DNA of 64,000 nt from positions 2,418,001 to 2,482,000 of the forward strand of contig NZ_CP031598.1 of the NCBI RefSeq assembly GCF_008728195.1. The letters are read 5' to 3'. Of the stretch, positions 2,494 to 19,785 are shown piece by piece. Origin of the DNA: Roseovarius indicus. GTDB taxonomy: Bacteria > Pseudomonadota > Alphaproteobacteria > Rhodobacterales > Rhodobacteraceae. The position numbers were made by a program, and so were the translations under genes. Numbering within the stretch: position 1 is the first letter of the stretch; each line of letters opens with the position of its first letter. The notes beneath the pieces are model-generated. The model saw only the letters and a program-made list of their open reading frames with translations, made no database searches and was not told the origin of the DNA.

Positions 2494-2505
2494 TGATATT
2501 CCTCC

Positions 2506-2733: not shown

Positions 2734-2761
2734 GGTTTAGTGTCCTTTCTTCAAGCTGGGA

Positions 2762-3115
2762 TCAACGACGCTCGCGACGGTCGCCGCGTTCTTCTTTCTT
2801 CTGCATCTGGACCGACGGGCCATCTTCGTGGCTGTCGACCTTGATGGTCAGAACGCGCATCACGTCGTCATGCAGCCGCATCAGGCGTTCCATTTCGTGA
2901 ACGGCCGGTGCCGGGGCATCGGTCTTCAGAAAGGCGTAGTGGCCCTTGCGGTTCTTGTTGATCTTGTAGGCCATCGTCTTGACGCCCCAGTACTCGCTGT
3001 CGACGACTTTGCCGCCATTGTCCGCGAGAACGGTGCCGAAATGTTCGACGAGGCCTTCGGCTTGCGCGTTGGACAGGTCCTGGCGCGAGATGAATACATG
3101 CTCATAGAGCGGCAT
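2762..3115 (-). CDS. rpsF: 30S ribosomal protein S6
   Basis: A protein of 117 residues beginning MPLYEHVFISRQDLS, with the S6 beta-alpha-beta fold segments YWGVKTMAYKINKNRKGHY and the C-terminal charged tail (EKKEERGDRRERR region). ATG 3115 was chosen because GGAG lies 7 bases upstream; an in-frame ATG at 3163 would add 16 atypical residues. S6 pairs with S18, the next gene. It is first in the operon, and the 241-base gap to the divergent gene at 3357 must hold its promoter. Confidence 0.96.
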   Translation of the reverse strand: MPLYEHVFISRQDLSNAQAEGLVEHFGTVLADNGGKVVDSEYWGVKTMAYKINKNRKGHYAFLKTDAPAPAVHEMERLMRLHDDVMRVLTIKVDSHEDGPSVQMQKKEERGDRRERR

Positions 3116-3356
3116 GTTTGCTCCACTTCTATCTAGGCGCATTTCAAAGGCGGGCCTTTTCATCCTTTCGCGGCCCGTCCACGAGAGACTGCGCGGTTCA
3201 TGCGTGATGCGAAAGGAATGCGGCCTATACGACGGATCGGCGGGCTTGGCAAGCGCCGAACAGGTGCCGGAGTTTTGCCCACGCGCCGCCCTATTGCTGG
3301 CGCGATTGCGGGGCAGGGTGCGGCCCTGACCAGACCAGACAGCGTGGACCGATCCG

Positions 3357-3857
3357 ATGACTGCATTGCCCGATTTCGCCGACCAGTTTCAAGCCCATGA
3401 CCGCCGTTCCGCGCTGCGTGAACCGGTGGACGCGGTCGACGGGCCGGGCGGGATGGCCGGGCGGTTCGCGATGTTCTGCGCGGCCACGGCGCTGATGATG
3501 GCGGCGGCGGGCATCTGGATGTTCCCGGCGCCGGATCACGCGGTGATGCTGGTCAAGCTGGGCGCCTCGCTGGGCATGTTCGGGGCGGGCGCGGTTCTGC
3601 TGTCGGGGCTGAATGCGACGCAGGAGATGGCCCGGGTCGAGATCGACGCCGGCCGCGACGAGATCCGGACCTATGACCGCGAGCTGCGGGGGCGCGTTTT
3701 CCTGACCGGGCGCTACCGGATGTCGGAGTTTGCCGAGATCCGGCTGTGCAACCGCACGTTTTTTGCGCGCGACACCGCCGGGCAGCTTGTCGTCTCGGTG
3801 CCGGTGCGGAGCCGGTCGCAGGAGCGGGCGATCCGCTCGGCGTTGTCGCTGGCCTGA
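3357..3857 (+). CDS. Hypothetical membrane protein, 166 aa
   Basis: There is no signal peptide. Two hydrophobic helices are visible, about residues 33-52 (RFAMFCAATALMMAAAGIWM) and 64-85, separated by a short polar turn with a proline. A hydrophilic C-terminal domain of about 80 residues follows (VEIDAGRDEIRTYDRELRG, then SVPVRSRSQERAI). The layout suggests a small inner-membrane protein with a cytoplasmic PH-like beta domain. I do not recognise a named family. It is divergent from rpsF and convergent with the LysR gene, so it is probably monocistronic. Confidence 0.7.
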   Translation: MTALPDFADQFQAHDRRSALREPVDAVDGPGGMAGRFAMFCAATALMMAAAGIWMFPAPDHAVMLVKLGASLGMFGAGAVLLSGLNATQEMARVEIDAGRDEIRTYDRELRGRVFLTGRYRMSEFAEIRLCNRTFFARDTAGQLVVSVPVRSRSQERAIRSALSLA

Positions 3858-3867
3858 GGGGCGGTTT

Positions 3868-4758
3868 TCACTTCACCTGCCGGGCGGCCGTCACGACCAT
3901 TTCGCTGGCACGGGTCAGCCGCGCCGGGCGGGCGCGGCCGCGGCGCGTGACGAGCCAGAGTTCGTGCCAGCGGCGTTCCGGCAATTGCACGATGGAGAGA
4001 CGATCCTTGCGGTCGAAGGCCTCGACCCCGCTGCGGGGCAGGAGAGTGTAGCCGATGCCCCGCGCCACGGGCGCCGGGATCTGGCCGATCTGGTTCACGT
4101 AGCCGCGGACATGGATGCGGTCGGCGCCGGGATAGGCGCCGGGGAAATTCCGGTAAAGCAGGTCGTCGGCCAGCGCGTAGCCGTCGGGATGGGCGATGAA
4201 GCCGCGCGCGTCGAGCTCGTCGAAGCTGGCGATCGTCTCGGGGGCGCCGGCGGGCAGGATCAGGCAAAGCTCTTCGCGCCCGAGCTGCCGGGCCTCGAGC
4301 CGGGGATGATCGGGGTCTGCTCCCAGCACGCCGAGGTCGAACCGGCCGTCGAGCAGGCCCGAGAGGATGTCGGGCTGGGGGGCGGCCTCGAGGTGGATCG
4401 AGAGGGCCGGCGCCGCGTTCATCCAGGGCATGAGGATCGGGTAGAGCAGCATGGCGAAGCTGCCGGAACAGGCGATGCGGAGCTCGCCGATATCGGGGTC
4501 ATCGGTTTCTATCGTCTCGCGCAGGCGCTTTTCCTCGGTCCGGCGGGAGAGGCCGAGTTGAAAGACGGCCTCGCCCGCCGCCGTGAGGGCAAAACTCTTG
4601 CCCTGCTGGGTGACCAGCTCGTGGCCGACCTGGTCTTCGAGTTTGCGCAGGTGCTGGGAGACGCCCGGCTGGGTCATGTTCAGGCGCCGGGCGGCGCGAG
4701 TGAAGTGCCCGGTTTCGCAGAGCGTGGTGAAGGTATTGAGCCAGGTGGCATTGAGCAT
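3868..4758 (-). CDS. LysR-family transcriptional regulator
   Basis: A typical LysR protein of 296 residues: an N-terminal winged helix-turn-helix (LNTFTTLCETGHFTRAARRL, then MTQPGVSQHLRKLEDQVG, residues 8-48) and a C-terminal type-2 periplasmic-binding-protein effector domain (about 90-290). It is divergent from the VOC enzyme gene at 4862, and LysR genes commonly control the divergent neighbour. The 103-base shared gap contains AT-rich sequence and an 8-bp dyad. The effector is unknown. Confidence 0.92.
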   Translation of the reverse strand: MLNATWLNTFTTLCETGHFTRAARRLNMTQPGVSQHLRKLEDQVGHELVTQQGKSFALTAAGEAVFQLGLSRRTEEKRLRETIETDDPDIGELRIACSGSFAMLLYPILMPWMNAAPALSIHLEAAPQPDILSGLLDGRFDLGVLGADPDHPRLEARQLGREELCLILPAGAPETIASFDELDARGFIAHPDGYALADDLLYRNFPGAYPGADRIHVRGYVNQIGQIPAPVARGIGYTLLPRSGVEAFDRKDRLSIVQLPERRWHELWLVTRRGRARPARLTRASEMVVTAARQVK

Positions 4759-4805
4759 TGGTGCGCAAACGTTTTGTTATGATTTTTATTTGAAATGATA
4801 ATTTC

Positions 4806-4824
4806 ACACCGGAGGGTCCGGTGT
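4806..4824. promoter_or_regulatory. Dyad in the LysR/VOC intergenic region
   Basis: An 8-bp perfect inverted repeat, ACACCGGA (4806-4813) and TCCGGTGT (4817-4824) with a 3-base centre, lies between the divergent lysR-type gene and the VOC gene. Just before it the sequence is unusually AT-rich (about 4770-4803), with TTAT and ATAA-type ends as in LysR T-N11-A boxes. It may be part of the operator or a leader hairpin; only the repeat itself is seen. Confidence 0.4.
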
Positions 4825-4861
4825 CTACCTCCGCGGTATCGCTCATTGAATGGAGATGGAG

Positions 4862-5362
4862 ATGACCCAGACGACCCCCCGTACATTTTCCCATATCGGC
4901 CTGTCCGTGCCCGACCTCGAGGCGGCGGTTAAGTTCTATTCCGAGGTGCTTGGCTTTTACGTGGTCATGGAGCCATCCGAAGCCGTGGAAGACGAGAGCG
5001 CCATCGGCGTGATGTGCACCGACGTGTTCGGCCCCGGCTGGGGTTCGTTGCGGATTGCGCATCTGTCGACGGCGGATGGTATCGGCATCGAGATCTTCGA
5101 ATTCCCCGGCAATTACGCGCCGGAGGAGAAGCTCGAGCACAAGCGGCACGGCACGTTTCACTTCGCGCTGCAGGACCCGGACGTGGAAGGGCTGGCGCGG
5201 CGGATCGTGGAGGCCGGCGGGCGGCAGCGGATGCCGGTGCGGGAGTATTTCCCGGGCGAGAAGCCCTATCGGATGGTCTATGTCGAGGACCCGTTCGGAA
5301 TCGTCTTCGAGCTTTACAGCCACAGCTACGAGCTGACCTATTCGGCCGGGGCCTATGCGTGA
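4862..5362 (+). CDS. VOC-superfamily (glyoxalase/dioxygenase fold) protein
   Basis: A protein of 166 residues with one vicinal-oxygen-chelate unit of two beta-alpha-beta-beta-beta modules. The first begins FSHIGLSVPDLEAAVKFYSEVLGF; the second has HFALQDPDVEGLARRI and ends VYVEDPFGIVFELYSH. Candidate metal ligands are His at the HIGLSV strand, His in HFAL and the final Glu in FELY. ATG 4862 is preferred over the in-frame ATGs at 4850 and 4856 because GGAG lies just before it. Its substrate is unknown; the divergent LysR gene probably controls it. Confidence 0.82.
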   Translation: MTQTTPRTFSHIGLSVPDLEAAVKFYSEVLGFYVVMEPSEAVEDESAIGVMCTDVFGPGWGSLRIAHLSTADGIGIEIFEFPGNYAPEEKLEHKRHGTFHFALQDPDVEGLARRIVEAGGRQRMPVREYFPGEKPYRMVYVEDPFGIVFELYSHSYELTYSAGAYA

Positions 5363-5553
5363 TGGCCGGGGTCGGCGCGATTGCGCCGGTTTTCCGGGCA
5401 GATGCGCGGGATTTTGCGGCATGTGCGGGCAGGCCGCGCCGTCTGTGTGTTTGTCCACACATCCTGTTGATTTCCACCGGATTGAAGGCGGCTGACCGCG
5501 CGTTAGCTTCTGCACCACGACGATACTGTCGCATTTGAAACAGGAGTTACGCG

Positions 5554-6126
5554 ATGAAAACGACACTGATGGCCGCAGCTCTGGCCTTCGCGGCCACCGG
5601 CGCCGTTGCCGCCCCCGTGCAATACGACCTCGATTCGAGCCACAGCCAGGTGGTGTTCACCTACGAGCACCTCGGCTATTCGACGACCTACGGCATGTTC
5701 TCGGGCTTCGAGGGCGAGATCATGTTCGACCAGGAAGACCCGGCGAATTCGTCGGTGGAAGTGTCGATGCCCGTGCGCTCGATGCTGACCGGCTGGGAAG
5801 AGCGTTTTCAGCACTTCATGTCGGATGACTTCTTCGGCGCGGAAGAGGGCGACATGATCACCTTCGTGTCGACCGGCATCGAGGTGACGGGCGAGGACAC
5901 CGCGAACATCACCGGCGACCTGACCATCGGCGACACCACGCAGGAAGTCGTTCTGGACGCCACGCTGAACCAGGCGGGCACGCACCCGATGGCCAACAAG
6001 GAGTGGGTCGGCTTCGACGCCACGACCACGGTTCTGCGCTCGGATTTCGGGCTGGACAAGTTCGCGCCTGCGATCAGCGACGAGGTTCAGGTGATGATCT
6101 CGATCGAGGCCGGGAAGGCTGAGTAA
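5554..6126 (+). CDS. YceI family periplasmic protein
   Basis: A protein of 190 residues with a cleavable signal peptide (MKTTLMAAALAFAATGAVAA, cleavage probably after AVAA). The mature part is the YceI lipocalin-like barrel that binds polyisoprenoid or amide lipids: it starts YDLDSSHSQVVFTYEHLGYS and includes the DFFGAEEGD loop and a C-terminal VMISIEA strand. An AGGAG site lies 6 bases before ATG. A second YceI domain is fused to cytochrome b561 at 7320-8546, so the region encodes two. A strong terminator follows. Confidence 0.92.
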   Translation: MKTTLMAAALAFAATGAVAAPVQYDLDSSHSQVVFTYEHLGYSTTYGMFSGFEGEIMFDQEDPANSSVEVSMPVRSMLTGWEERFQHFMSDDFFGAEEGDMITFVSTGIEVTGEDTANITGDLTIGDTTQEVVLDATLNQAGTHPMANKEWVGFDATTTVLRSDFGLDKFAPAISDEVQVMISIEAGKAE

Positions 6127-6151
6127 GCTTTTCGGATTTCAGAGTTGATGG

Positions 6152-6181
6152 GGCCGCCGGGGACACCCGGCGGCCTTTTTG
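6152..6181 (+). terminator. Rho-independent terminator after yceI
   Basis: A 10-bp GC-rich stem (GGCCGCCGGG 6152-6161 with CCCGGCGGCC 6166-6175), a 4-base loop and a T run. It is a textbook terminator 26 bases after the stop codon. Confidence 0.88.
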
Positions 6182-6190
6182 TTCGGGTGG

Positions 6191-6258
6191 ACGGAATTTT
6201 TCAAAATTCCGTCTCGGAAAATTGGAATTTTCCGGACCGTTTTCTTCGAAGAAAACGG
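6191..6258. repeat. Triple-palindrome intergenic element, copy 1
   Basis: Three palindromes sit head to tail: 6191-6212 (core GGAATTTT-TC-AAAATTCC), 6215-6234 (CGGAAAATT-GG-AATTTTCCG) and 6237-6258 (a perfect 22-bp palindrome centred on TTCGAA). A near-identical unit is at 52908-52976. It lies between the yceI terminator and the end of the convergent DUF389 gene. It is REP-like in position, but its AT-rich core contrasts with the GC-rich genome. Confidence 0.85.
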
Positions 6259-6266
6259 GGGCGTCG

Positions 6267-7286
6267 CTAGCCTGTCACCGGCGTGCGCACCCAGAGCAGC
6301 ACCGCCAAGGCGATCAGCAGGCCCAGCCAGATCCCGCCGTTGATGAGGGAAGATCGGCGGGCCTGTTTCTTTTCGAACCAGGTGCGGGGGGTGATGCCGC
6401 GCGACAGCATCACGACCTGGGCCGCGAGGTTGACGCAGGCGACGTTGACGCAGAGGAGGAGCGCCGCGCCGAGGGCGAATTCGGGGTGCCCTGCGCCGAG
6501 GAAGAGGCCGATGGCGGCGGTGGGGGGCAGCAGCGCCACGGCGACCATCACGCCGACAAGCGCCGAGGAGAGGCCGGTGACGAGGGAAAGCGCCGCGGCG
6601 GCGCCGGAGGCCAAGGCGATGGCCATGCCGTCGAAGCCCACCTGCGTGCGGGACATGAGTTCCTTCGACGCCGCATCGACGGGCCAGACCGCGCCGATGA
6701 GCAGGCTGAGCCCGAGGGCCACGGCGATGCCGGCGGCGTTGGTGGTGATGGCGCGGCCCATGAGCTTGCCGTCGCCCAGGGCCACGCCCACCGCCAGCGC
6801 GAGGTTGGGGCCGAGAAGGGGGGCGATGACCATGGCGCCCACCACGACCGCGACGTTGTCGGCGATCATGCCGAAGGCCGCGACGACCGTGGAGAGCACC
6901 ACGAAGACCAGGTAGTTGCGGTCGGTCTGGGCCTGTTTCCAGACGTTGTTGTAGATCTCCTCGCGCGACTGGCCGCCGCGGTTCTTGCGGGCGTCTTTTG
7001 TGGCGTCGTCTTCCTCTTCCTCCTTTTCTTTCTCGGGGAAGGGAATGGTGGTTTCCACGGGCAGGAGGGTGATGCGCCAGTCGTCGCGTGTGCCCATCAG
7101 GGATTGCAGGCGGTCGAGCAGGGCCTGGCGGTGGTCCTGCGTGGCGAGGATGTGGACGCAGACATGGTCGGTATTGTGGAGGTCGGCTGTTGCCGTGGTG
7201 CTCAGGGCCTCGTGCTCCTCCGCCTGCCGGAGGATATCCGGCAGGGCGTCTTTCGGGGCGGAGACGATGATCTGGCGCAGGCTCAT
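6267..7286 (-). CDS. DUF389 (TIGR00341-type) integral membrane protein
   Basis: A protein of 339 residues. Residues 1-80 form a soluble ferredoxin-like N-terminal domain, followed by a highly charged linker (EKEKEEEEDDATKD, about 88-101) and then the DUF389 membrane domain with about eight helices. The latter contains the conserved stretches ADNVAVVVGAMVIAPLLGPN and VMVAVALLPPTAAIGLFLG. Members of this family are inner-membrane proteins of uncertain function, often discussed as transporters. It lies between two oppositely ending units and starts 34 bases upstream of the cytochrome b561-YceI stop, so it may be downstream in the same transcript. Confidence 0.88.
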   Translation of the reverse strand: MSLRQIIVSAPKDALPDILRQAEEHEALSTTATADLHNTDHVCVHILATQDHRQALLDRLQSLMGTRDDWRITLLPVETTIPFPEKEKEEEEDDATKDARKNRGGQSREEIYNNVWKQAQTDRNYLVFVVLSTVVAAFGMIADNVAVVVGAMVIAPLLGPNLALAVGVALGDGKLMGRAITTNAAGIAVALGLSLLIGAVWPVDAASKELMSRTQVGFDGMAIALASGAAAALSLVTGLSSALVGVMVAVALLPPTAAIGLFLGAGHPEFALGAALLLCVNVACVNLAAQVVMLSRGITPRTWFEKKQARRSSLINGGIWLGLLIALAVLLWVRTPVTG

Positions 7287-7319
7287 GGCGCAAAGTGTTA
7301 GCGCATGGCTGCGCCGGGG

Positions 7320-8546
7320 TCACTGGCGTTTGGCGGTCAGGTCGAAGGATATGTCGACGGTGAAGCCGAGGGTGCCTTCGTCCTTTGTGCCGAGGCCGAT
7401 GTTGAAGTCGCGCCGGTCGACGGTGAGGGCGCCGTTGGCGGTGGCGGTGTCGCCGTCGATGGTGAGGGTGAAGGGGAGCGTGACGGGGACAGATTGGTCC
7501 TTGATCGTCAGCGTGCCGTCGGCGACGTGGCCGTCTTCCTGCGCCATGATATCGGCGTTGAACGTTGCGGTTGGGTGGGTTTCGGCGGCGAAATAGTCGG
7601 GGCCCATGGCCTGATCGGTGACGGAGCCGAGGGTGAGGGAGGGGATGGAGACGGTGACGGTGACGTCGCCGTGCATGCCGTCGGCATCCGGGTCTTCGGA
7701 ATAGGCGATCTCGGCGGTCCAGTCGGAGAAGGAGCCGGAGACGTCGGAGCCCATTTGCGAAACGGTGATGTCGAGGGAGCCGTTTTGCACCTGCCAGTCG
7801 CTTTCGACGGCTTCGAGGGCGGCGGTTTGGGTGGGTTCAGAACCGGCTTGGGGGAAGAGGCCCGCCGCGGCGCCGCCGCCGATGGCCAGTGCCCAGACCG
7901 CGAGGGCGGTGAGGACCGGCAGGGCGTGACCGGGCTGGCGTGGTGTGGGTTCGGCGCGGGTGCGGCCGGGGAGCATGCGGCGGAGGGTGGCGTCGCGGTC
8001 GATGCTGTGGTGCTTGATGGCGCCGAGGATGTGGAGGGTGATGGCGCCGATCAGCACCCATTGCAGGATGTAGTGCAGGGTGCCGGTGACCTGGGCCACG
8101 GTTTCGTCCTTGGGGACGAAGGGGAGCGACTGGCCGAAGGGCCACCAGATGGGTGCGAAGCCGGAGGTGGCGGCGTGGTGGATCCAGCCGGTGAGGGGGA
8201 CGATGACGAGGGAGCCGTAGAGCAGCCAGTGGATGGTGTGGGCGAGCCAGGCCTCGGCGGGTTTGTCGCCGTTGAGGAGGCCTGTGCGGGGCTGGCCGAG
8301 GGCCCAGAGGATGCGCAGGAGGGCCGTGAAGAAGATGGTGACGCCGATGGTCTTGTGCAGCGAGAAGAGGAGCGCGGCGCGGGCGGTGTCGGCGTCGGTC
8401 GTGGCGATGTCGGGGTTCCGGACCGCATGGGCCAGGTCGCTGGCGATGAGGCCGAGCGGAATGACGGTGAGGATCAGCAGGGCGGTGAGCCAGTGGAAGG
8501 CCTTGGTGACGGCGCCGTAGCTGTCGTGGGAATTGGCGTAGGGCAT
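7320..8546 (-). CDS. Cytochrome b561-YceI fusion protein
   Basis: A protein of 408 residues. The first ~185 residues are a four-helix cytochrome b561 domain with candidate haem histidines in FHWLTAL, LHKTIG, HWLLYG, LHYILQ and HILGAIKHH. A short fifth hydrophobic segment (VLTALAVWALAIGGGAAAGL) leads to a C-terminal YceI barrel (about 225-408) that would face the periplasm. The fusion suggests electron transfer to, or from, a lipid-soluble quinone or isoprenoid held by the YceI domain. ATG 8546 was chosen because upstream sequence in frame is low-complexity and the b561 domain starts here (MPYANSHDSYGAVTKAFHW); its ribosome binding site is weak. It is divergent from fabD. Confidence 0.88.
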   Translation of the reverse strand: MPYANSHDSYGAVTKAFHWLTALLILTVIPLGLIASDLAHAVRNPDIATTDADTARAALLFSLHKTIGVTIFFTALLRILWALGQPRTGLLNGDKPAEAWLAHTIHWLLYGSLVIVPLTGWIHHAATSGFAPIWWPFGQSLPFVPKDETVAQVTGTLHYILQWVLIGAITLHILGAIKHHSIDRDATLRRMLPGRTRAEPTPRQPGHALPVLTALAVWALAIGGGAAAGLFPQAGSEPTQTAALEAVESDWQVQNGSLDITVSQMGSDVSGSFSDWTAEIAYSEDPDADGMHGDVTVTVSIPSLTLGSVTDQAMGPDYFAAETHPTATFNADIMAQEDGHVADGTLTIKDQSVPVTLPFTLTIDGDTATANGALTVDRRDFNIGLGTKDEGTLGFTVDISFDLTAKRQ

Positions 8547-8706
8547 GGGGTATCCGGTGAGCGAAAATATGTTGTGGGGGAGAGTAGGGGCCGCGGCGGC
8601 GGGAGCAACTGCAATCGGCGCACATTTCCGGTGCGCCGGGTGAGAGGCGTTGCCTCTGGACGGCGGGCAAGGTATCGGGGGGCACGATTTGGAGGGGATT
8701 GAGCAT

Positions 8707-9648
8707 ATGAGCCGAGCATTCGTATTTCCCGGGCAGGGCGCGCAGAGCATTGGCATGGGCCGCGACCTGGCCGAGGCCTATCCGGCGGCGAAGGCCGTGT
8801 TCGACGAGGTCGACGAGGCCCTGGGCGAGAAGCTGAGCGCGCTGATCTGGGAGGGGGAGGCCGACGAGCTGACCCTGACGCAGAACGCGCAGCCGGCGCT
8901 GATGGCGACGTCGCTGGCGGCGATGCGGGCGCTGGAGGCCGAGGGCGTGGGCGTGGAGGCCGCGGGCATGGTGGCCGGGCATTCGCTGGGCGAGTATTCG
9001 GCTTTGGCCGCGGCGGGCGCGCTGAGCGTGGCGGATACGGCGCGGTTGTTGCGGACAAGGGGCCGCGCGATGCAGGAGGCGGTGCCGGTGGGCGTGGGTG
9101 CGATGGCGGCCTTGCTGGGCATGGACCTGGAGGGTGCCAAGGCGCTGGCGGCGGATGCGGCAGGCGACCAGGTGCTGCAGGCCGCGAATGACAACGACCC
9201 CAGCCAGGTGGTGATTTCCGGGCACAAGGAGGCCGTGGAACGGGCCGTCGAGATGGCCAAGGAGCGGGGTGCCAAGCGCGCCATGCTGCTGCCGGTGAGC
9301 GCGCCGTTCCATTGCGCGCTGATGGAGCCCGCCGCGAAGGTGATGGAAGAGGCGCTGGCCGCGGTGGAGATTGCCGCACCGAAGGTGCCGCTGGTCGCCA
9401 ATGTGCGGGCCGGGGCGGTGAGCGATCCGGCCGAGATCAGGGCGTTGCTGGTGGAGCAGGTCACGGGCTCGGTGCGGTGGCGCGAGTCGGTGGAGTTCAT
9501 GAGCCGCGAGGGTGTGACCGAGGTCTGGGAGATTGGCGCCGGGAAAGCGTTGAGTGGCATGATCCGGCGGATCGACAAGGCGATTGCCTGCCGGGCCGTG
9601 GGCGCGCCGGCGGATGTGACCGCCGCGGCGGAGAGTTTGAAAGGTTAA
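8707..9648 (+). CDS. fabD: Malonyl-CoA:ACP transacylase
   Basis: FabD loads malonate onto acyl carrier protein for fatty acid synthesis. The 313-residue protein starts MSRAFVFPGQGAQSIGMG, has the QNAQPALMA motif, the nucleophile Ser93 in GHSLGEY and the catalytic His in VSAPFHCALM. ATG 8707 is supported by GGAGGGG about 10 bases upstream; the longer frame from 8650 is non-coding. It opens the fabD-fabG-acpP-fabF cluster on the plus strand. Confidence 0.97.
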   Translation: MSRAFVFPGQGAQSIGMGRDLAEAYPAAKAVFDEVDEALGEKLSALIWEGEADELTLTQNAQPALMATSLAAMRALEAEGVGVEAAGMVAGHSLGEYSALAAAGALSVADTARLLRTRGRAMQEAVPVGVGAMAALLGMDLEGAKALAADAAGDQVLQAANDNDPSQVVISGHKEAVERAVEMAKERGAKRAMLLPVSAPFHCALMEPAAKVMEEALAAVEIAAPKVPLVANVRAGAVSDPAEIRALLVEQVTGSVRWRESVEFMSREGVTEVWEIGAGKALSGMIRRIDKAIACRAVGAPADVTAAAESLKG

Positions 9649-9659
9649 GGCCGTAGGCC

Positions 9660-9676
9660 CCGGGGGATGCCCCCGG
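9660..9676 (+). other. Hairpin between fabD and fabG
   Basis: CCGGGGG (9660-9666) and CCCCCGG (9670-9676) form a 7-bp stem with a 3-base loop. No T run follows, so it is more likely an mRNA stability or processing hairpin than a terminator. Confidence 0.5.
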
Positions 9677-9701
9677 AGACAGGATGAACAGGGAGACCTA
9701 G

Positions 9702-10439
9702 ATGTTTGATCTGACGGGAAAATATGCGCTGGTCACGGGTGCCTCGGGCGGCATCGGCGGCGCGATTGCCAAGGCGCTGCACGCGGCGGGCGCGACGGTG
9801 GGCCTGAGCGGCACGCGGGTCGAGCCGCTGGAGGCGCTGGCCAAGGAGCTGGGCGAGCGGGCGCATGTGCTGCCCTGCAACCTGGGCGATCCGGAGGCCG
9901 TCGATTCGCTGCCCAAGCAGGCGATCGAGGCGATGGGCGGCCTCGATATCCTTGTGAACAACGCGGGCGTGACGCGCGACCAGCTGTTCATGCGGATGTC
10001 GGACGAGGACTGGCAGACGGTTCTGGACGTGAACCTGACCGCGACGATGCGGCTGTGCCGGGCCGTGGTGCGGCCGATGATGAAGGCGCGCTGGGGCCGG
10101 ATCATCAATATCAGCTCGGTCGTGGGCACCACCGGCAATGCGGGGCAGGTGAACTATGCCGCCTCGAAGGCCGGGATGGTGGGGATGACCAAGTCGATCG
10201 CCCACGAGGTGGCGAGCCGGGGCATCACCGCGAATGCCGTGGCACCCGGTTTCATCGCCACCGCGATGACCGAAAAGCTGTCGGATGCGCAGAAAGACGC
10301 GATCAATACGCAAATTCCCGCCGCGCGCATGGGCACGCCCGAGGAAATCGCCGCGGCGGTGCTTTACCTGGCCAGTCCGGAGGCCGGATATGTCACTGGC
10401 GCGACCTTGCATGTGAATGGCGGCATGGCCATGATTTAG
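9702..10439 (+). CDS. fabG: 3-oxoacyl-ACP reductase
   Basis: A 245-residue short-chain dehydrogenase that reduces 3-oxoacyl-ACP with NADPH in fatty acid elongation. Visible are the Rossmann motif TGASGGIGGAIA near the N-terminus, NNAGVTRDQLFMRM, the catalytic Ser in NISSVVG, and Tyr/Lys in YAASKAG. The ending GGMAMI is typical for FabG. It follows fabD by 53 bases and precedes acpP. Confidence 0.96.
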   Translation: MFDLTGKYALVTGASGGIGGAIAKALHAAGATVGLSGTRVEPLEALAKELGERAHVLPCNLGDPEAVDSLPKQAIEAMGGLDILVNNAGVTRDQLFMRMSDEDWQTVLDVNLTATMRLCRAVVRPMMKARWGRIINISSVVGTTGNAGQVNYAASKAGMVGMTKSIAHEVASRGITANAVAPGFIATAMTEKLSDAQKDAINTQIPAARMGTPEEIAAAVLYLASPEAGYVTGATLHVNGGMAMI

Positions 10440-12016: not shown

Positions 12017-13276
12017 ATGCGTCGTGTCGTCGTCACAGGTCTGGGACTGGTTACGCCTCTGGCGGATGGGGTCGAGGAAACCTGGAAGCGCCTTCTGGAG
12101 GGAAAGTCCGGGGCGGGGCCGATCCAGAAATTCGATGCCAGCCGGGTGATCACCAAGTATGCCTGCGAAGTGCCCTATGGCGATGGCAGTGACGGGACGT
12201 TCAACCCCGACACCTACATGGAGCCGAAGGAGCAGCGGAAGGTCGATGATTTCATCCTTTACGGGATGGCCGCGGCCGACCAGGCGGTGAAGGATGCCGG
12301 CTGGACGCCCGAGGACGAGGAAAGCCTGCTGCGCACCGGCGTGATGATCGGGTCTGGCATCGGCGGCTTGCGCTCGATCGAGCAGACGACGCTTCTGATG
12401 CATGAGAAGGGCCCCAAGCGGGTGTCGCCCTTCTTCATTCCGGGCGCGCTGATCAACCTGGTCAGCGGGCAGGTGGGCATTCGGTACGGGTTCAAGGGGC
12501 CGAACCACGCGGTTGTGACGGCCTGTTCGACCGGCGCGCACGCGATCGGGGATGCGGCAAGGCTGATTCAGCATGGCGATGCCGAGGTGATGGTGGCCGG
12601 AGGCGCGGAATCGGCCATCTGCGAGATCGGGATTGCCGGGTTCAACGCCTGCAAGGCGCTGTCGACCAAGCGCGAGGACAACCCGCAGGCGGCAAGCCGC
12701 CCCTATGACGTGGACCGCGACGGGTTCGTCATGGGCGAGGGCGCGGGCGTGGTGGTGCTGGAGGAGTACGAGCACGCCGTGGCGCGGGGCGCGAAGATTT
12801 ACGCGGAAATCCTTGGCTATGGCCTGTCGGGCGATGCCTATCACATCACCGCGCCGAGCGAGGATGGCGATGGCGGGTTCCGGGCCATGCAGGCGGCGCT
12901 GCGCAACGGGGGGCTCGACGCCTCTGAGGTGGATTACATCAACGCGCACGGTACCTCGACCATGGCCGACACGATCGAGCTGAAGGCGGTGGAGCGGATC
13001 CTGGGCAATGCGGCGAGCAAGGCGACGATGAGCTCGACCAAGTCGTCGACCGGGCACCTTCTGGGGGCCGCGGGGGCGATCGAGGCGATCTTCTCGATCC
13101 TGGCCATTCGCGACCAGGTGGCGCCGCCGACGATCAACCTCGACAACCCGGCGGTGGAGACGCCGCTTGATCTTGCGCCGAACGCGAAAGTCGAACGGAG
13201 TATCAGCGTGGTGATGTCGAACAGCTTCGGCTTTGGCGGCACCAACGCGTCGGTCGTCATGGGGGCGCCGCGCTGA
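12017..13276 (+). CDS. fabF: 3-oxoacyl-ACP synthase II
   Basis: FabF condenses malonyl-ACP with acyl-ACP and makes cis-vaccenate precursors. This 419-residue thiolase-fold protein shows the nucleophile Cys in TACSTGAHAIG, the two catalytic His in NAHGTSTMADTIE and STGHLLGAAGAIEAIF, and the ending FGFGGTNASVV. AGAAAGG precedes the ATG. Its stop overlaps the mltG start (ATGA), so the two are translationally coupled, as often seen in Rhodobacterales. Confidence 0.97.
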   Translation: MRRVVVTGLGLVTPLADGVEETWKRLLEGKSGAGPIQKFDASRVITKYACEVPYGDGSDGTFNPDTYMEPKEQRKVDDFILYGMAAADQAVKDAGWTPEDEESLLRTGVMIGSGIGGLRSIEQTTLLMHEKGPKRVSPFFIPGALINLVSGQVGIRYGFKGPNHAVVTACSTGAHAIGDAARLIQHGDAEVMVAGGAESAICEIGIAGFNACKALSTKREDNPQAASRPYDVDRDGFVMGEGAGVVVLEEYEHAVARGAKIYAEILGYGLSGDAYHITAPSEDGDGGFRAMQAALRNGGLDASEVDYINAHGTSTMADTIELKAVERILGNAASKATMSSTKSSTGHLLGAAGAIEAIFSILAIRDQVAPPTINLDNPAVETPLDLAPNAKVERSISVVMSNSFGFGGTNASVVMGAPR

Positions 13277-14433
13277 TGTGGCGGAACATTGCGTCGAATT
13301 TCCTGACGTTCCTGGTGGTCGTGGTGTTCCTGGTCGCCGGGGTGATCCTTTGGGGACAGAACGAATATAACGCGACCGGGCCGCTTGAGGGCTCGATCTG
13401 CCTGCGGGTGGAACGGGGCAGCAACATGCGGCGCGTGTCGGAGGACCTCGAGGCGCGGGGCGCGGTGAGCAGCAGCACGATCTTCCGGATCGGTGCGGAT
13501 TACACCGGCAAGGACAGCCAGCTGAAAGCCGGAAGCTGGCTTATTCCCGAGGGCGCCACCATGGCGGAAGTGACCGATCTCGTCACCCGCGGCGGGGCCA
13601 GCACCTGTGGGACGGAGGTCGTCTATCGGATCGGGGTGACGCAGGTTCAGGCGCAGGTGCGCGAGCTGGACCCGGATACGGAGACCTACGAGGAGGTCGC
13701 GGAGTTCGACCTGCTGGGCGAGGAGGCCGCGCCGGCGGAGTATACCGACGTGGTGGCGCAGGCCGACACGCGGTTCCGGATCAACATTGCCGAGGGCGTG
13801 ACCAGCTGGCAGATCGTCACTGCGCTGAACGCGGTGGACGTGATGGAAGGCGAGGTCGACGGCGTGCCCCCGGAAGGCAGCCTTGCGCCCACCAGCTACG
13901 AGGTGGAGCGCGGCGACGGGCGCGTGGCGCTGCTGGACCGGATGAAGGAGATCCAGAAGACGCGGCTGGCCGCGGCCTGGGAGGCGCGGGACGAGGACCT
14001 GCCGCTGGAAAGCCCGGCCGACGTGCTGATTCTGGCCTCGATCATCGAGAAGGAGACAGGCCTGCCGGACGAGCGCGGGCAGGTGGCCAGCGTGTTCGTG
14101 AACCGGCTGCGGCGGGGCATGCGGCTTCAGACCGACCCGACGGTGATCTACGGGATCACCAATGGCGAGGGCACGCTGGGGCGGGGTCTGCGGCAGAGTG
14201 AACTTCGGCAGGCAACGCCTTACAACACTTACGTGATTGCCGGTTTGCCGCCCACGCCGATTGCCAACCCGGGCGAGGCCAGCCTGATGGCTGCCGTGCA
14301 GCCCGCCGAGACGGATTACGTGTTCTTCGTGGCCGATGGCTCGGGCGGGCATGCCTTTGCCGAGACGCTGGACGAGCACAACCGGAACGTGGCCCGCTGG
14401 CGCGAGATCGAGGCGCAGCAGCAGAACCAGTAG
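13276..14433 (+). CDS. mltG: Endolytic murein transglycosylase MltG
   Basis: MltG cuts nascent peptidoglycan strands and so limits glycan length. This 385-residue protein has one N-terminal membrane anchor (about residues 5-28, FLTFLVVVVFLVAGVILW) and a YceG domain. The latter contains the catalytic Glu region ILASIIEKETGLPDERG and the conserved NRLRRGMRLQTDPTVIYG. It overlaps fabF by one base at the ATGA junction. It lies immediately before the GTA locus. Confidence 0.95.
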   Translation: MWRNIASNFLTFLVVVVFLVAGVILWGQNEYNATGPLEGSICLRVERGSNMRRVSEDLEARGAVSSSTIFRIGADYTGKDSQLKAGSWLIPEGATMAEVTDLVTRGGASTCGTEVVYRIGVTQVQAQVRELDPDTETYEEVAEFDLLGEEAAPAEYTDVVAQADTRFRINIAEGVTSWQIVTALNAVDVMEGEVDGVPPEGSLAPTSYEVERGDGRVALLDRMKEIQKTRLAAAWEARDEDLPLESPADVLILASIIEKETGLPDERGQVASVFVNRLRRGMRLQTDPTVIYGITNGEGTLGRGLRQSELRQATPYNTYVIAGLPPTPIANPGEASLMAAVQPAETDYVFFVADGSGGHAFAETLDEHNRNVARWREIEAQQQNQ

Positions 14434-14655: not shown

Positions 14656-14973
14656 ATGATTCTCATAACACGGGACGACGGGCCTTCGGGCCTGGCGGCA
14701 TCTGTCGGCCTGATCGAACGCCAGCTGGCGGAGATGCGGGCCGAGATGGAGGCCATTCACGGGCGGATCAGGAAGGGTGAGCTGGAGGGTATCAAGGATG
14801 CCGCCCGGGTCACCGCCGATATTCGCCATTGGTTCAAACTTGCGCTGGAAGCGGAGGTGCAATTTGCAAAATACACATCAGAGGAAAAGGGAATCGTGCG
14901 CGATTACGCCCTCGATTTCTCGGAAGCAAGAGAGTCTATCCGGGGCCGCCTGGCTCGTCTCGGAAGGGGCTGA
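14656..14973 (+). CDS. GTA small terminase-like protein (orfg1 homologue)
   Basis: A 105-residue, mostly helical protein (GLAASVGLIERQLAEMRAEM, then IKDAARVTADIRHWFKLALE) with the size and position of RcGTA gp1, the small terminase that recognises DNA for packaging. It lies directly upstream of, and overlaps, the large-terminase frame and behind a good promoter. It appears intact, although the downstream packaging and capsid genes have been lost. The GTA assignment comes from context and resemblance and not from a diagnostic motif. Confidence 0.65.
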   Translation: MILITRDDGPSGLAASVGLIERQLAEMRAEMEAIHGRIRKGELEGIKDAARVTADIRHWFKLALEAEVQFAKYTSEEKGIVRDYALDFSEARESIRGRLARLGRG

Positions 14974-17368
14974 GGTTCAGGCCGAGTTTCTCGACAGCCT
15001 GAGCGACGGGGAGATCCTGGCGCTGCCTTACCTGTTCGAGTTCTGGGCGATGGCGCACCAGATGCCGCCCGAGGGCGACTGGCGGGCCTGGGTGGCCATG
15101 GGCGGGCGCGGCGCGGGCAAGACACGCGCCGGGGCGGAATGGGTGCGGGCGCAGGTCGAGGGGGCCAAGCCGCTCGACAAGGGGCGGTGCCGGACGGTGG
15201 CTTTGGTGGCCGAGACGGTGGACCAGGCGCGCGACGTGATGGTGTTCGGGGAGAGCGGGATCCTGGCGTGTTCGCCGCCCGACCGGCGGCCCGAGTGGCA
15301 GGCGACGCGGCGGCGGCTGGTCTGGCCGAACGGGGCCACGGCGCAGGTTTTTTCGGCCAGTGAGCCGGAAAGTTTGCGGGGGCCGCAGTTCGATTGCGCC
15401 TGGGTGGATGAATATGGGTGCGCGGCGATTGACAAGGGGACGAACCAGCCCAACAAGTTCCTCGATCCGAAGTCGTCGGAAAGTGCGGTGCCGCATTATT
15501 CGAATGGCCAGCAGGACGAGCTGATCCAGTTCCAGTACCTTCGGGCGATGGCGGGGTATTGGGGCGATCCGGCGCACAACCCGGTGTCGGAGGAATATGG
15601 CGGGCCGATGGTGGATATGGAGCACGCCTATGCCTGGTCGTGGGATGCGCGGCCCTATCCGTTTTTCCCCAACGATTCCGAACGGTGGTCCGAGGGGGAG
15701 AATTACCTGCGCGGGCACTGGATCACCGGCCGGATGACGGCGTGGCGGCTGGCCTCGGTGGTGGAGGAAGTCTGCGGCCGGGCGGGGCTGGACGCCTGCG
15801 ATACGGGCGGGCTGCACGGGCATGTGCGCGGTTACCTGGTGGAGCAGGTGGCCGAGCCGCGGGCGGCGTTGCAGCCGCTGGCGATCCGGTACGGCTTCGA
15901 CGCGGTGGAGCGCGGGGGCGCGTTGGTGTTCCGTCCGCGGGACGGGCTGGCGGATCACGTGGTCGATGTCGACCGCGTTGTGCGCGATGACGAGCGCGAC
16001 GGTGCGATCGAGGAGGTGCGCGGCAGCGACGTGGAACTGGCGGGCCGCGTCAGGCTGCGGTTCATCGAGGCGGGGGCGGATTACGACGTGATCTCGGAAG
16101 AGGCGGTGTTGGGCGTGGATGATGCAAGCGTCTCGACGTCGGAGATTCCGCTGGCGATGACACGGGCCGAGGGGCGGCAGACGGTGGAGCGCTGGTTGTC
16201 GGAGTCGCGGGTGGCGACCGATACGGTGCGGCTGACGTTGCCGCGGTCGCGGCTGGCGGTTGGTGCGGGGGATGTGATCGCGCTGCCGGAAGAGGGCGGG
16301 CAGGGGCATTTCCGGGTCGACCGGGTTGAGATGCTGGCCCATGCGCAGAAGCTCGAGGCGATCCGGATCGAGCCGGCAAGCTACCGGCCGGTGCTGGTGG
16401 AGCCTGAGCTGGGCCCGCTGCGTGGGTTCGACGCGCCGGCGCCGGTGACGCCCTTCTTCCTCGACCTGCCGCTGATGACCGGCGAGGAGGTGCCACAGGC
16501 GCCGCATGTGGCGGTGACGGCGCGGCCCTGGCCCGGGTCGGCGGCGGTCTACGTGGCGGAAGGGGGCGAGGATTTCAGCCTCGACCAGATACTGGAGGCG
16601 CGGACGCCGATCGGGGTTACGGAAAATGCTTTGGCGCCGGCACCGAGCGGTGTGTTCGACCGGGGGGCGGCGCTAAGGGTGCGGATGCGGCATGGCGGGT
16701 TGCAGAGTGTCGGCGCCGACCGGTTTTTGTCGGGTGCGAACCTCTGCGCCATTGGAGATGGCAGCCCGGACGGGTGGGAGCTGTTCCAGTTCCGCGATGC
16801 GGCGCTGGTGGATGTGGACACCTACGAGATCGGGTTCCGGCTGCGGGGGCAGTTGGGGACGGAGGTGGAGGCGATCTGGCCTGCGGGGTCTTATATCGTG
16901 CGGCTGGATGGGACGCCGAAGCAGATCGGATTGACGGAAGGCCAGATCGGGCAGGAGCGGCATTACCGGGTGGGCCCGGCGAGCCGGCCGGTGGATGATC
17001 CGTCTTACGTGCACACGGTGCTGGCGTTCGAGGGGGCGGGGCTGCGGCCGTTGAGCCCGGTGCATTTGTCGGTGAACGGGGCGCCTGGTTCGGATATGGC
17101 ATTCGGCTGGATTCGGCGGACGCGGATCGGCGGGGACCGGTGGGAGACGCCCGAGGTTCCGCTGGGCGAGGAGGCAGAGCGGTATGTCGTGCGGGTCGTG
17201 CAGAGCGAGGCTGTGCTGCGCGAGGAGATGGTGAGCGCACCGGTCTGGACCTACACGGCGGCGGCACAGGGCGCGGACGGGCTGGCGGGGGCGTTCGAGG
17301 TCCGGGTGGCGCAGGTGTCGGCGCTGGTAGGTGCGGGGCGGTTCGCGGCGCTGGGGCTGGTGGCGTAG
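14864..17368 (+). CDS. Chimeric GTA gene: large terminase N-terminus fused in frame to gp15 tail protein C-terminus
   Basis: The first ~180 residues are the ATPase part of a GTA/phage large terminase: Walker A GGRGAGKT (80-87 from the TTG start) and Walker B-like CAWVDE (178-183). Immediately after, the sequence switches to the C-terminal half of RcGTA gp15, the TIM-barrel/tail-host-interaction protein: CAAIDKGTNQPNKFLDPKSS, then GGPMVDM, AWSWDARPYPFFP and a ~500-residue beta-rich phage-tail domain. The switch falls at about 15407-15421. Missing are the terminase nuclease domain, portal, protease, capsid, tail tube, tape measure and the first half of gp15. The frame is open for 834 codons. 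TTG 14864 is chosen because GGAGG lies 6 bases before it; an ATG at 14777 deep inside the small terminase gene is unlikely. Packaging function must be lost. Confidence 0.85.
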   Translation: MQNTHQRKRESCAITPSISRKQESLSGAAWLVSEGAEVQAEFLDSLSDGEILALPYLFEFWAMAHQMPPEGDWRAWVAMGGRGAGKTRAGAEWVRAQVEGAKPLDKGRCRTVALVAETVDQARDVMVFGESGILACSPPDRRPEWQATRRRLVWPNGATAQVFSASEPESLRGPQFDCAWVDEYGCAAIDKGTNQPNKFLDPKSSESAVPHYSNGQQDELIQFQYLRAMAGYWGDPAHNPVSEEYGGPMVDMEHAYAWSWDARPYPFFPNDSERWSEGENYLRGHWITGRMTAWRLASVVEEVCGRAGLDACDTGGLHGHVRGYLVEQVAEPRAALQPLAIRYGFDAVERGGALVFRPRDGLADHVVDVDRVVRDDERDGAIEEVRGSDVELAGRVRLRFIEAGADYDVISEEAVLGVDDASVSTSEIPLAMTRAEGRQTVERWLSESRVATDTVRLTLPRSRLAVGAGDVIALPEEGGQGHFRVDRVEMLAHAQKLEAIRIEPASYRPVLVEPELGPLRGFDAPAPVTPFFLDLPLMTGEEVPQAPHVAVTARPWPGSAAVYVAEGGEDFSLDQILEARTPIGVTENALAPAPSGVFDRGAALRVRMRHGGLQSVGADRFLSGANLCAIGDGSPDGWELFQFRDAALVDVDTYEIGFRLRGQLGTEVEAIWPAGSYIVRLDGTPKQIGLTEGQIGQERHYRVGPASRPVDDPSYVHTVLAFEGAGLRPLSPVHLSVNGAPGSDMAFGWIRRTRIGGDRWETPEVPLGEEAERYVVRVVQSEAVLREEMVSAPVWTYTAAAQGADGLAGAFEVRVAQVSALVGAGRFAALGLVA

Positions 17369-17599: not shown

Positions 17600-18535
17600 A
17601 TGACTTTGCCACAAGATGTCATCGGCGTCGATATCGCCAAGGACTGGATCGACGTCTTCTTTCTGTCCGCCCGCCGGGCGGAGCGGGTGCCGATGGCGAC
17701 CGCCGAGCTTCGGGCTTTCGCCGCCCGGGCCCGGGGGGCGCTGGTGGTGTTCGAGGCCTCGGGCGGGTACGAGCACCCGCTGGCCGAGGCGCTCGGCGCG
17801 GCGGATGTCACCTACGCCCGGGTCAACCCGCGGCAGGCGCGGGAGTTCGCCCGCGCCACGGGCCGGCTGGCCAAGACCGACCGGGTCGATGCCCGGGTGC
17901 TGGCGGAGATGGGTCGGGCGCTGGCTTTGCGCCCGACGCCGCCGGCCGATCCCGGGCGGGCGCGGCTGGCCGGCCTGATGGGCCGCCGGGACGATCTCGG
18001 CGCGATGCTGCGGGCCGAGATGGCGCGCCTGCGTCAGGCCCGCGATGCCTCTGTCCGCCGCGATATCGGCAGCATGATCGCGCTGCTGCGCCGCCGGATC
18101 GGCAAGCTCGAGGCCGAGATCGCCGCGGTGATCGGGGCGGATGAGGCGCTGTCGGACCGGTCGCGCCTCTTGCGGACGATGCCGGGGGTGGGGCCGCTGC
18201 TGGCGGCAAGCCTGCTGGCCCGGCTGCCCGAGCTGGGCCGTCTCGACCGCCGGGCGATCGCCAGCCTCGCCGGTCTGGCGCCGCATGCCTGCGACAGCGG
18301 CCGGTTCCGGGGGAAGCGGCGGATCTGGGGCGGCCGCGCGGAGGTGCGGCGCACGCTCTGCCTCGCGGGGTTCATCGCCAGCCGGTATGACCCGGCGCTA
18401 AGGGCCTTCCGGCGCAAGCTGCAGGAAGTCGGCAAGCCCGTGAAACTCGCCATCGTCGCCTGCGCCCGCAAGCTGATCACCGTCCTCAACGCAATGCTGC
18501 GGGATCAAAGGGAGCACCGGCCAGGGACGGGATAA
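17600..18535 (+). CDS. IS110 family transposase (DEDD/serine recombinase)
   Basis: A 311-residue protein. The N-terminal RuvC-like DEDD domain has the four acidic residues Asp11 (VIGVDIAKD), Glu52 (VFEASGGYE), Asp94 and Asp97 (KTDRVDAR). A coiled middle follows, then the C-terminal Transposase_20 domain with MPGVGPLLAASLLARLPELG and the candidate nucleophile Ser233 in ACDSGRFRG. All expected catalytic residues are present, so it may be active. It uses ATG 17600. Confidence 0.95.
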   Translation: MTLPQDVIGVDIAKDWIDVFFLSARRAERVPMATAELRAFAARARGALVVFEASGGYEHPLAEALGAADVTYARVNPRQAREFARATGRLAKTDRVDARVLAEMGRALALRPTPPADPGRARLAGLMGRRDDLGAMLRAEMARLRQARDASVRRDIGSMIALLRRRIGKLEAEIAAVIGADEALSDRSRLLRTMPGVGPLLAASLLARLPELGRLDRRAIASLAGLAPHACDSGRFRGKRRIWGGRAEVRRTLCLAGFIASRYDPALRAFRRKLQEVGKPVKLAIVACARKLITVLNAMLRDQREHRPGTG

Positions 18536-18554: not shown

Positions 18555-18893
18555 TCAGCCGCTCGCGCAGTCAACGCAGCGGGAGGCGGCCGGGTCGAGG
18601 CGGAGGCGGCCAGGGGCGATGGCGTCGCCGCAATCCTCGCAATAGCCGAACTCACCGTCGTCCATGCGGGACAGGGCCGCCTGGAGCCGGGCGCGTTCGG
18701 TCTTGCGGCGGGCGCTGGTGGCCTTGGCCATGGCCTGGTTCTGGAGGGCGTCCATCCGGCTGAGGCGGCCGACAGCCTGTTGGTCAAGTTCCACCGTCGC
18801 CTGACCGGCCTCGCCCATGTGATCCTCGGCGTCGAGCTCGGCCATGCGCGCGGCGATCAGGTCGCGGAATTCCTGAAGGCTTTCTTCATTCAT
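18555..18893 (-). CDS. DksA/TraR-type C4 zinc-finger protein
   Basis: A 112-residue protein: an N-terminal coiled-coil (about 5-75) and a C-terminal four-cysteine zinc finger, CEDCGDAI then SRCVDCASG. This is the short DksA-like form, which binds the RNA polymerase secondary channel and modulates transcription with ppGpp. Start 18893 (MNEESLQEFRD) was chosen as the family-typical start; ATG 18914 in frame is possible. Divergent from cysE. The IS110 element ends right at its 3' side but leaves the stop intact. Confidence 0.9.
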   Translation of the reverse strand: MNEESLQEFRDLIAARMAELDAEDHMGEAGQATVELDQQAVGRLSRMDALQNQAMAKATSARRKTERARLQAALSRMDDGEFGYCEDCGDAIAPGRLRLDPAASRCVDCASG

Positions 18894-18978
18894 TCTTGTG
18901 AAAGCTCCCATCACGCCTTTGCATTTTACGCGCCGTGCCTAAATGGTATAGTCCGGCATGCCCATGAGGAGCAATGAC

Positions 18979-19785
18979 ATGGCTGAAACCCGTACCAAAC
19001 TGGCCGAGCTCGACCCGGTCTGGGCCCGGATCAAGACCGAGGCCGAAGAATCCGTCGAGCATGAACCGCTTCTGGGCGGGGTCGTGCATTCATCCATTCT
19101 GCACCACAAGACGCTGGAATCGGCCCTGGCCTACAGGGTGTCGATGAAGCTGACCTCGAACGAGATGTCGGAGCAGATCCTGCGGGAAATCTGTGACATG
19201 GCCTATAGCGACGACGACAGCCTGGGCATGGCGGCGCGGGCCGATATCGTGGCGGTCTATGACCGAGACCCGGCCTGCGACCGGTTCCTGCTGCCGATGC
19301 TGTTCTTCAAGGGCTTCCAGGCGATCCAGGCGTATCGCATCGCGCATTGGCTGTGGACGAAGGGCCGCCGCGACATGGCGCGGTTCTTCCAGATGCGCGC
19401 GTCGGAAACCTTCGGGGTGGATATTCACCCGGCGGCGAAGATCGGCAAGGGCATCATGATCGACCATGCTCATTCGATCGTCATCGGCGAGACGGCGGTG
19501 GTGGGCGACAACGTCTCGATGCTGCATTCGGTCACGCTGGGCGGGACCGGCAAGGAAGAGCAGGACCGTCACCCCAAGATCGGCGATGGTGTTCTGATCG
19601 GGGCCGGCGCCAAGGTCCTGGGCAATATCAAGGTCGGGCATTGCAGCCGTATCGCCGCAGGGTCGGTGGTGTTGCAGGAGGTGCCGCCTTGCAAGACGGT
19701 GGCCGGTGTGCCCGCGAAGATCGTGGGCGAGGCGGGCTGCGATCAGCCGTCGGTCAACATGGACCAGCTGCTGGGCGTGCGCTGA
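18979..19785 (+). CDS. cysE: Serine O-acetyltransferase
   Basis: CysE makes O-acetylserine from serine and acetyl-CoA, the first step of cysteine synthesis. The 268-residue protein has an N-terminal helical domain (1-140) and a left-handed beta-helix of hexapeptide repeats (FGVDIHPAAKIGKGIMIDHA, VIGETAVVGDNVSMLHSVTL, GGTGKEEQDRHPKIGDGVLI). The catalytic His/Asp pair lies in the DIHPAAK and MIDHAHS region. ATG 18979 has GGAG 9 bases upstream; the earlier ATG 18958 lacks this. A likely -10 box TATAGT is at 18947-18952. It sits downstream of the GTA locus, a position I recall for other Rhodobacterales. Confidence 0.95.
   Translation: MAETRTKLAELDPVWARIKTEAEESVEHEPLLGGVVHSSILHHKTLESALAYRVSMKLTSNEMSEQILREICDMAYSDDDSLGMAARADIVAVYDRDPACDRFLLPMLFFKGFQAIQAYRIAHWLWTKGRRDMARFFQMRASETFGVDIHPAAKIGKGIMIDHAHSIVIGETAVVGDNVSMLHSVTLGGTGKEEQDRHPKIGDGVLIGAGAKVLGNIKVGHCSRIAAGSVVLQEVPPCKTVAGVPAKIVGEAGCDQPSVNMDQLLGVR

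Follow-up and report, generated by a model that had tools for sequence, protein, structure and literature searches.

One exact joint between the terminase and gp15 genes of a gene transfer agent, shared among Rhodobacterales

The window analysed here, a stretch of 64,000 nt from Roseovarius indicus (contig NZ_CP031598.1, positions 2,418,001 to 2,482,000), contains what is left of an RcGTA-like head-tail cluster of a gene transfer agent (GTA): a single in-frame gene that joins the start of the large terminase, TerL, to the C-terminal half of the tail protein gp15. The same fusion was found by protein search in 16 of 218 whole genomes (the source genome, G000, and genome G114 being counted once), with an identical joint in all of them. 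The explanation favoured here, to which we give a probability of about one half, is that one old GTA-null allele would have persisted beside the intact allele and been moved between lineages by homologous recombination.

Structure of the fusion gene

Counted from a TTG start, the reading frame runs through 834 codons, the length given by a first-pass annotation of the sequence; it is also open further upstream, to 14714, and an upstream GTG start would give 863 amino acids. The window's own gene corresponds to protein database entry P0002 (856 amino acids, 100% identity). Pfam, PHROGs and alignments with the sister genome G044 agree in confirming that it encodes a TerL/gp15 chimera. In Pfam, Terminase_6N matches residues 78-184 (E 4e-15) and positions 204-299 of the GTA_TIM profile match residues 174-269 (E 2.7e-39), followed by Phage-tail_3 and Rcc01698_C, while PHROGs place a terminase at residues 59-185 and a tail protein at residues 166-829 (profile positions 623-1304). 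Up to the joint the protein reads as TerL, LRGPQFDCAWVD-E, and from the joint on as gp15, E-YGCAAIDKGTNQPNKF.

Neither parent protein is complete. On the TerL side both Walker motifs are kept, the Walker B segment W-V-D-E (encoded at 15401-15412) forming the end of the ATPase part, and Terminase_6N is covered over positions 2-105 of 215 only; no nuclease family was found in the fusion protein by Pfam search. On the gp15 side only the C-terminal 650 amino acids remain of a protein of about 1300 that begins with an iris domain. Residues 144-829 align with residues 613-1299 of RcGTA gp15 (PDB 6tba, 6teh), i.e., with the end of the peripheral domain and the central and fibre-binding domains, in the megatron nomenclature used in PMC7296036.

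When the two halves were aligned separately, residues 1-185 matched the intact TerL of G044 and residues 181-834 its intact gp15, each at 89%. Both genes are whole in G044, where the two joint sites lie 12.5 kb apart, so that the missing interior, put at roughly 10 kb or more by the first-pass annotation, comes to about 12.5 kb. The flanks of the window share about 87.5-90% DNA identity with G044 over the stretch compared. Relative to intact relatives, the rest of TerL, the portal, the capsid, the other intervening genes and the N-terminal half of gp15 have been lost.

The source is a marine bacterium whose genome (6.17 Mb, 5 contigs, 99.99% complete) holds one match to the fusion and no second copy. 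Relocation of the rest of the cluster was considered and rejected, as a search for the GTA portal and capsid elsewhere in this genome gave only distant matches, of at most 41% identity. These portal and capsid relatives (G000:C1 about 2665388-2666320, 2867514-2868587 and 4909907-4912670; 27-41% identity to the GTA proteins) probably belong to prophages of the same chromosome. More broadly, the portal and major capsid genes that a functional RcGTA-like cluster comprises were absent from G000 and ten other fused genomes, that is from all 11 tested of the 16, and were detected in the intact controls G044 and G470. Because portal and capsid are absent, cells bearing the fusion are inferred to be unable to build GTA particles.

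Distribution of the fusion

Protein searches revealed one frame spanning both halves in six of 60 genomes of a genus sample, and a search of the whole genus (84 genomes) with the junction DNA pattern returned eight true fusions and two chance matches. The fusion was also present in 3/48 genomes of a second genus, one of them split by a frameshift, in both genomes of a third, small genus (2/2, with 70% identity between their C-terminal gp15 parts, hereafter gp15-C), and in 7/110 genomes when the family was sampled at one genome per genus. The fused share is thus alike across samples (8/84, 3/48 and 7/110; chi-square p 0.67), which are not independent, G000 and G114 being common to them and the 84 genomes having been searched by DNA pattern. 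Overall, the fused form makes up roughly 6-10% of the sampled species representatives.

In a named collection, the junction pattern was found in 11 records, from Roseovarius, Sulfitobacter, Rhodobacter, Brevirhabdus and further Rhodobacteraceae, all of which stay open across the joint. Among the best 120 matches in the protein database, a ranking that favours fused proteins, 57 are fused, including the window's own P0002, and 54 differ after the joint. Annotations of the fused entries include 'megatron', 'terminase-like' and 'host specificity protein'. The frame is open in 15 of the 16 fused genomes; the remaining copy, in the one-contig genome G114 (L054, G114:C1:1951578-1954017), is broken into two frames, one of 418 and one of 440 codons, and is decaying. 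Random pseudogenes would be expected to show varied breakpoints and decaying frames, at odds with a single joint in 16/16 genomes and an open frame in 15/16.

The exact joint

The register D-E-X-G-C is identical in 16/16 fused genomes and in 57/57 fused database proteins, and the wider consensus W-[V/A]-D-E-X-G-C holds in all fused sequences read; a variant with one residue more or less does not occur among the 57 proteins. The residue before the glutamate is the aspartate of TerL in every fused copy read, where intact gp15 has T, rarely S or A. Position X is occupied by Y in 12 of the 16 genomes; among the 57 proteins, 46 have Y or F, the residues also found there in most intact gp15 copies. 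In the 40 intact TerL copies that were read, by contrast, D-E is followed by L, M or I. X being like gp15 and unlike TerL, the breakpoint lies within the shared glutamate codon in these copies. In the remaining ones X is L, M or I, which may come from either gene, and the breakpoint is confined to two codons. The residue at X matches between fused and intact copies in 49 of 62 cases (41 are Y with Y, eight are L or F); Y is also the commonest intact residue (100/132), and L, M or I could come from TerL.

The first-pass annotation had suggested a deletion driven by microhomology, a proposal that is not supported: between the two sites the identical stretch is only 2-4 nt long (mean 2.69 in 39 intact genomes), and equal or more microhomology is offered by 13,323 to 36,938 of 168,000 in-frame codon pairs (8-22%; four genomes), so that the run does not single out this spot. 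Nor was a conserved DNA site or motif seen by eye at either breakpoint, since the codons round both sites vary synonymously among intact genomes. Site-specific recombination would call for conserved DNA sites at both breakpoints, where synonymous variation and a shared run of 2-4 nt are seen instead.

Selection of the register through protein folding was likewise considered. Two AlphaFold models of the chimera reached a mean predicted local distance difference test (pLDDT) score of 69.6 and 71.5, with values below 50 around the joint (residues 183-229 in one run and 172-222 in the other). The P-loop and a large part of the TIM remnant likewise fall below 50, and high confidence is found mainly in the C-terminal baseplate domains. 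Neither run, both made from shallow alignments (40 and 91 rows), gives a folded hybrid, and a strict fold requirement for the joint is not supported by these predictions.

Phylogeny of the two halves

A maximum-likelihood tree of gp15-C was built from 19 fused rows, among which four pairs are duplicate genomes, and 50 intact rows, with G114 and two short-frame intact rows left out. It requires 10 changes between the fused and intact states, all forced by supported branches, and none of 200 bootstraps unites the fused rows in one group. Instead, fused copies stand next to intact ones: G000 with the intact G044, G003 with G025, the uncultured Roseovarius 95 with G031/G008, and Sulfitobacter CW3 with G470; the intact G006 is nested among fused species. 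These pairings are repeated in a tree of the N-terminal TerL part (TerL-N; 16 fused and 40 intact rows), with 11 changes, seven of them forced. A 137-row tree, whose sample was enriched for fused proteins by the query, gives 25 changes, 19 of them forced, numbers that may be up to two too high because the fused P0066 was counted as intact; one Roseovarius subclade is mostly fused in this tree.

The N-terminal part of gp15 (gp15-N), present in intact genomes only, falls broadly into the same neighbourhoods as gp15-C, e.g., G044 with G043. Since gp15-N follows similar relationships, the intact state looks ancestral, and restoration of intact clusters by import is not supported. Identities between fused and intact gp15-C can be very high, reaching 99.7% for P0077 and G470, 98.8% for P0046 and G472, 97.4% for the window's gene and P0005 of Roseovarius indicus, 96.2% for P0004 and P0006, and 95.4% for P0010 (R. 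pacificus) and P0049.

Origin of the fusion

According to the favoured explanation, a single in-frame deletion of about 12.5 kb would have joined the Walker B aspartate of TerL to the glutamate of the FTE-X-GC motif in the gp15 TIM-barrel, and this joint would have persisted in Rhodobacterales alongside the intact allele. Homologous recombination would move it between lineages and keep swapping its flanks for those of the intact alleles already present, leaving hardly anything but the joint as a mark of common descent. Two studies bear on such a route: transformation deletes islands via short fragments whatever the island size, insertions declining with size (PMC5850275), and the DNA carried by RcGTA, about 4.5 kb long, is integrated through allelic replacement (PMC9690577). 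As a short donor can remove a long island and the reverse needs a long import, the allele would spread more easily than it reverts.

Common descent accounts for the identical joint without further assumption, and the similar fused share in the three samples fits a minority allele. In the 9 nt of gp15 sequence next to the joint, fused copies from different groups of genera differ from one another by 0.163-0.174, slightly less than they differ from intact copies (0.181-0.219; no significance test was made); an apparent surplus of TAT/TGC codons in fused genes was given no weight beyond this figure. Common descent also implies, given the native flanks described below, either long coexistence with recombination or repeated re-import and erosion. 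The first of these can be taken further, though only tentatively: the fusion may be an ancient minority trans-species polymorphism, of non-producers versus producers, whose flanks have been shuffled to the last codons.

Several observations weigh against descent from one allele. Near the joint, several fused copies retain rare features that their own relatives also show: Sulfitobacter CW3 shares GTT-GAC with G470, P0004 shares WADE with the intact G044, P0046 and P0075 share GCG with G472 and G486, and P0040 and P0044 have F at position X like G026. Features of this kind can be read in some fused copies only; in these, the flanks look native up to a few codons from the joint. Beyond the first 9 nt, and on the TerL side, a donor tract cannot be seen. 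The excess divergence expected at the joint is absent or weak (over the first 15 nt, 0.199 between fused and intact versus 0.165 between intact copies, with overlapping pairs), and the pair ratio of 1.01 versus 0.83 shows, by eye, no significant peak, G508 having been paired with G013 when G056 is nearer. Native flanks so close to the joint need many recombinations there, and long coexistence of both alleles across many species is a strong demand. Taken together, the flanks speak against a long tract having recently been imported directly from another species. Searches for a vector were negative within their scope: no viral contig has the exact Y-type junction pattern, the DNA search of phage records gave 17 records with short matches, none covering more than 5%, and among 15 plasmid matches listed none spans both halves.

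The main alternative, possible but less probable in our estimate, is a recurrent precise deletion in which about 12.5 kb would be lost anew in each lineage at or next to the shared glutamate codon. This would directly explain why fused copies stand beside intact sisters on both the gp15-C and the TerL-N trees, why the intact state looks ancestral on gp15-N, and why the sequence next to the joint is native in several copies. It would, however, need either a precise process of unknown nature or conditions under which only this chimera is favoured. No mechanism for the former is at hand. Thousands of in-frame codon pairs offer as much microhomology, no DNA motif was seen at the breakpoints and the 57 proteins hold no register variant; as to the latter, the two AlphaFold runs do not show the joint folded into a hybrid structure for which one register would be required.

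Another possibility, which we consider improbable, is that the chimera is selected as a protein with some other function replacing that of the GTA, and was spread by transfer. Besides the open frame in 15/16 genomes, Walker A is kept in 56 of the 57 fused database proteins, both genomes of the small third genus are fused at 70% gp15-C identity, and the ratio of nonsynonymous to synonymous substitution rates (dN/dS) is 0.07-0.13 in both halves for four close fused pairs. However, this last range lies within that of intact genes (0.02-0.24 in nine intact pairs), three distant fused pairs give 0.10-0.40 or no value, and low dN/dS is no proof of function, since recombination with intact alleles may affect the flanks. 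From such values, selection on the chimera cannot be told apart from a recent origin of the fusion or from gene flow between fused and intact alleles. The low-confidence joint, the changed Walker A of P0066 (GGRDAGKT) and the frameshift of G114 also argue against it. The fused protein may or may not act, its baseplate domains being predicted to fold and its chimeric joint not; the suggestion of the first-pass annotation that the fusion may be kept is compatible with the low dN/dS of the close pairs.

That the gene is a one-off remnant of a decaying GTA cluster, as the first-pass annotation mainly took it to be, and has no wider meaning is very improbable: an intact Roseovarius indicus gp15 is 97-98% identical and the deletion may accordingly be recent within the species, but the same joint occurs in 15 other genomes of several genera and in dozens of database proteins. 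An assembly artefact or mixed population, including the assembly collapse that the first-pass annotation had named as its own refutation, can be practically discounted: nothing was found in its favour, no shared run longer than 4 nt exists at the joint in 39 intact genomes and the same fusion is found in 16/218 genomes, including assemblies of 1 to 6 contigs (G114, G003, G163, G000, G034 and G052) and, to judge by their titles, records of different projects.

The locus and its neighbours

The features of the locus are given in Table 1. Homologues of the two end genes of an RcGTA-like cluster lie at its conserved mltG...cysE position, and the fusion occupies this same locus in several genera. 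The gene neighbourhood was compared across 18 other fused loci (14 distinct genomes), the duplicates being L051/L056, L042/L055, L045/L086 and L050/L085. The small frame at the gp1 position is kept upstream, as the first-pass annotation had it; tblastn recovers it in the corresponding position in 10 of the 18 loci, and its name rests on position, no Pfam family scoring above cut-off.

The IS110-family transposase has no room at the corresponding place in G044. It was dropped as a candidate source of the recombinase, as the dksA-like gene follows the gp15 match by at most about 40 bases in six fused loci (L032, L033, L034, L036, L043 and L049). In L035 (G033), about 7.9 kb (about 1900-9780) between mltG and the gp1-fusion pair do not align to the window.

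Table 1. Positions in the window of the fusion gene, its parts and the neighbouring genes
Feature	Position	Strand	Remarks
mltG (YceG-like), left locus marker	13276..14433	+	present in 14/18 other fused loci
Small open reading frame at gp1 (small terminase) position	14656..14973	+	overlaps the fusion start in another frame
TerL-gp15 fusion gene	14864..17368	+	834 codons from TTG; Pfam, PHROGs
TerL-derived part, ATPase N-terminal segment to Walker B W-V-D-E	14951..15412	+	Terminase_6N; start approximate
Walker A GGRGAGKT	15101..15124	+	kept in 56/57 fused database proteins
Junction codon GAA (E183)	15410..15412	+	D182 last TerL-specific, Y184 first gp15-specific residue
gp15/megatron-derived part	15413..17365	+	last third of GTA_TIM, then central and fibre-binding domains
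IS110-family transposase	17600-18535	+	DEDD_Tnp_IS110, Transposase_20; between fusion and dksA-like gene
DksA/TraR-type zinc finger protein gene, right locus marker	18555..18914	-	present in 8/18 other fused loci
cysE (serine acetyltransferase), right locus marker	18958..19785	+	present in 17/18 other fused loci

Other losses and rearrangements of the cluster

Where the GTA has been lost in other ways among the 60 genomes of the genus sample, different remnants are left. G039 (L175) has whole TerL and gp15 genes about 4 kb apart, without a GTA-type portal or capsid; G058 retains TerL and, from gp15, about the last 52 codons; in G011 gp15 is present but TerL has no match, and G016 has no match at all. 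The portal is absent from all four, and G010 is ambiguous on account of a contig edge. In five further genomes (G023, G035, G037, G040 and G048) TerL and gp15 are separated by tens of kb or more, and three of these genomes have them on opposite strands, a layout which indicates that the cluster is rearranged or split.

Significance and comparison with known systems

Why bacteria keep costly GTAs, and whether non-producing cheaters coexist with producers, are open questions. In one study, pseudogenised GTA clusters are discussed as possible recent cheaters and incomplete clusters were discarded from analysis (PMC10883770); its main text nowhere uses the word fusion, and 'fused' and 'fusion' are both absent from that of PMC9836097. 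Full-text literature searches, whose coverage left out most subscription papers, returned no report of a TerL-gp15 fusion. A GTA-null allele with one exact joint, occurring in close relatives of intact strains, would be a natural marker by which producers and non-producers could be counted and followed in populations and metagenomes; if the deletion instead recurs with single-codon precision, the process making it would be new. The fusion also bears on the annotation of database entries with terminase- or megatron-type names.

The favoured explanation resembles chromosomal curing by transformation, in that a short deletion allele with homologous arms could overwrite a long insert; for the fusion, this is a proposed spreading route only (PMC5850275). 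At the level of the protein, the fusion shares with the TerL of GTAs and tailed phages its Walker A and Walker B segments and the N-terminal ATPase sequence, but stops at Walker B, without the remaining ATPase and the nuclease part. Unlike RcGTA gp15 (Rcc01698), it has no iris/penetration and adhesin-like domains and lacks most of the TIM-barrel, a TerL head standing in their place. The locus is that of RcGTA-like head-tail clusters, with the same order of end genes: the gp1 position and the start of TerL on one side, the end of gp15 and cysE on the other. It differs from them in that the interior of about 12.5 kb is gone and the end genes form one frame, with a joint that is the same across genera.

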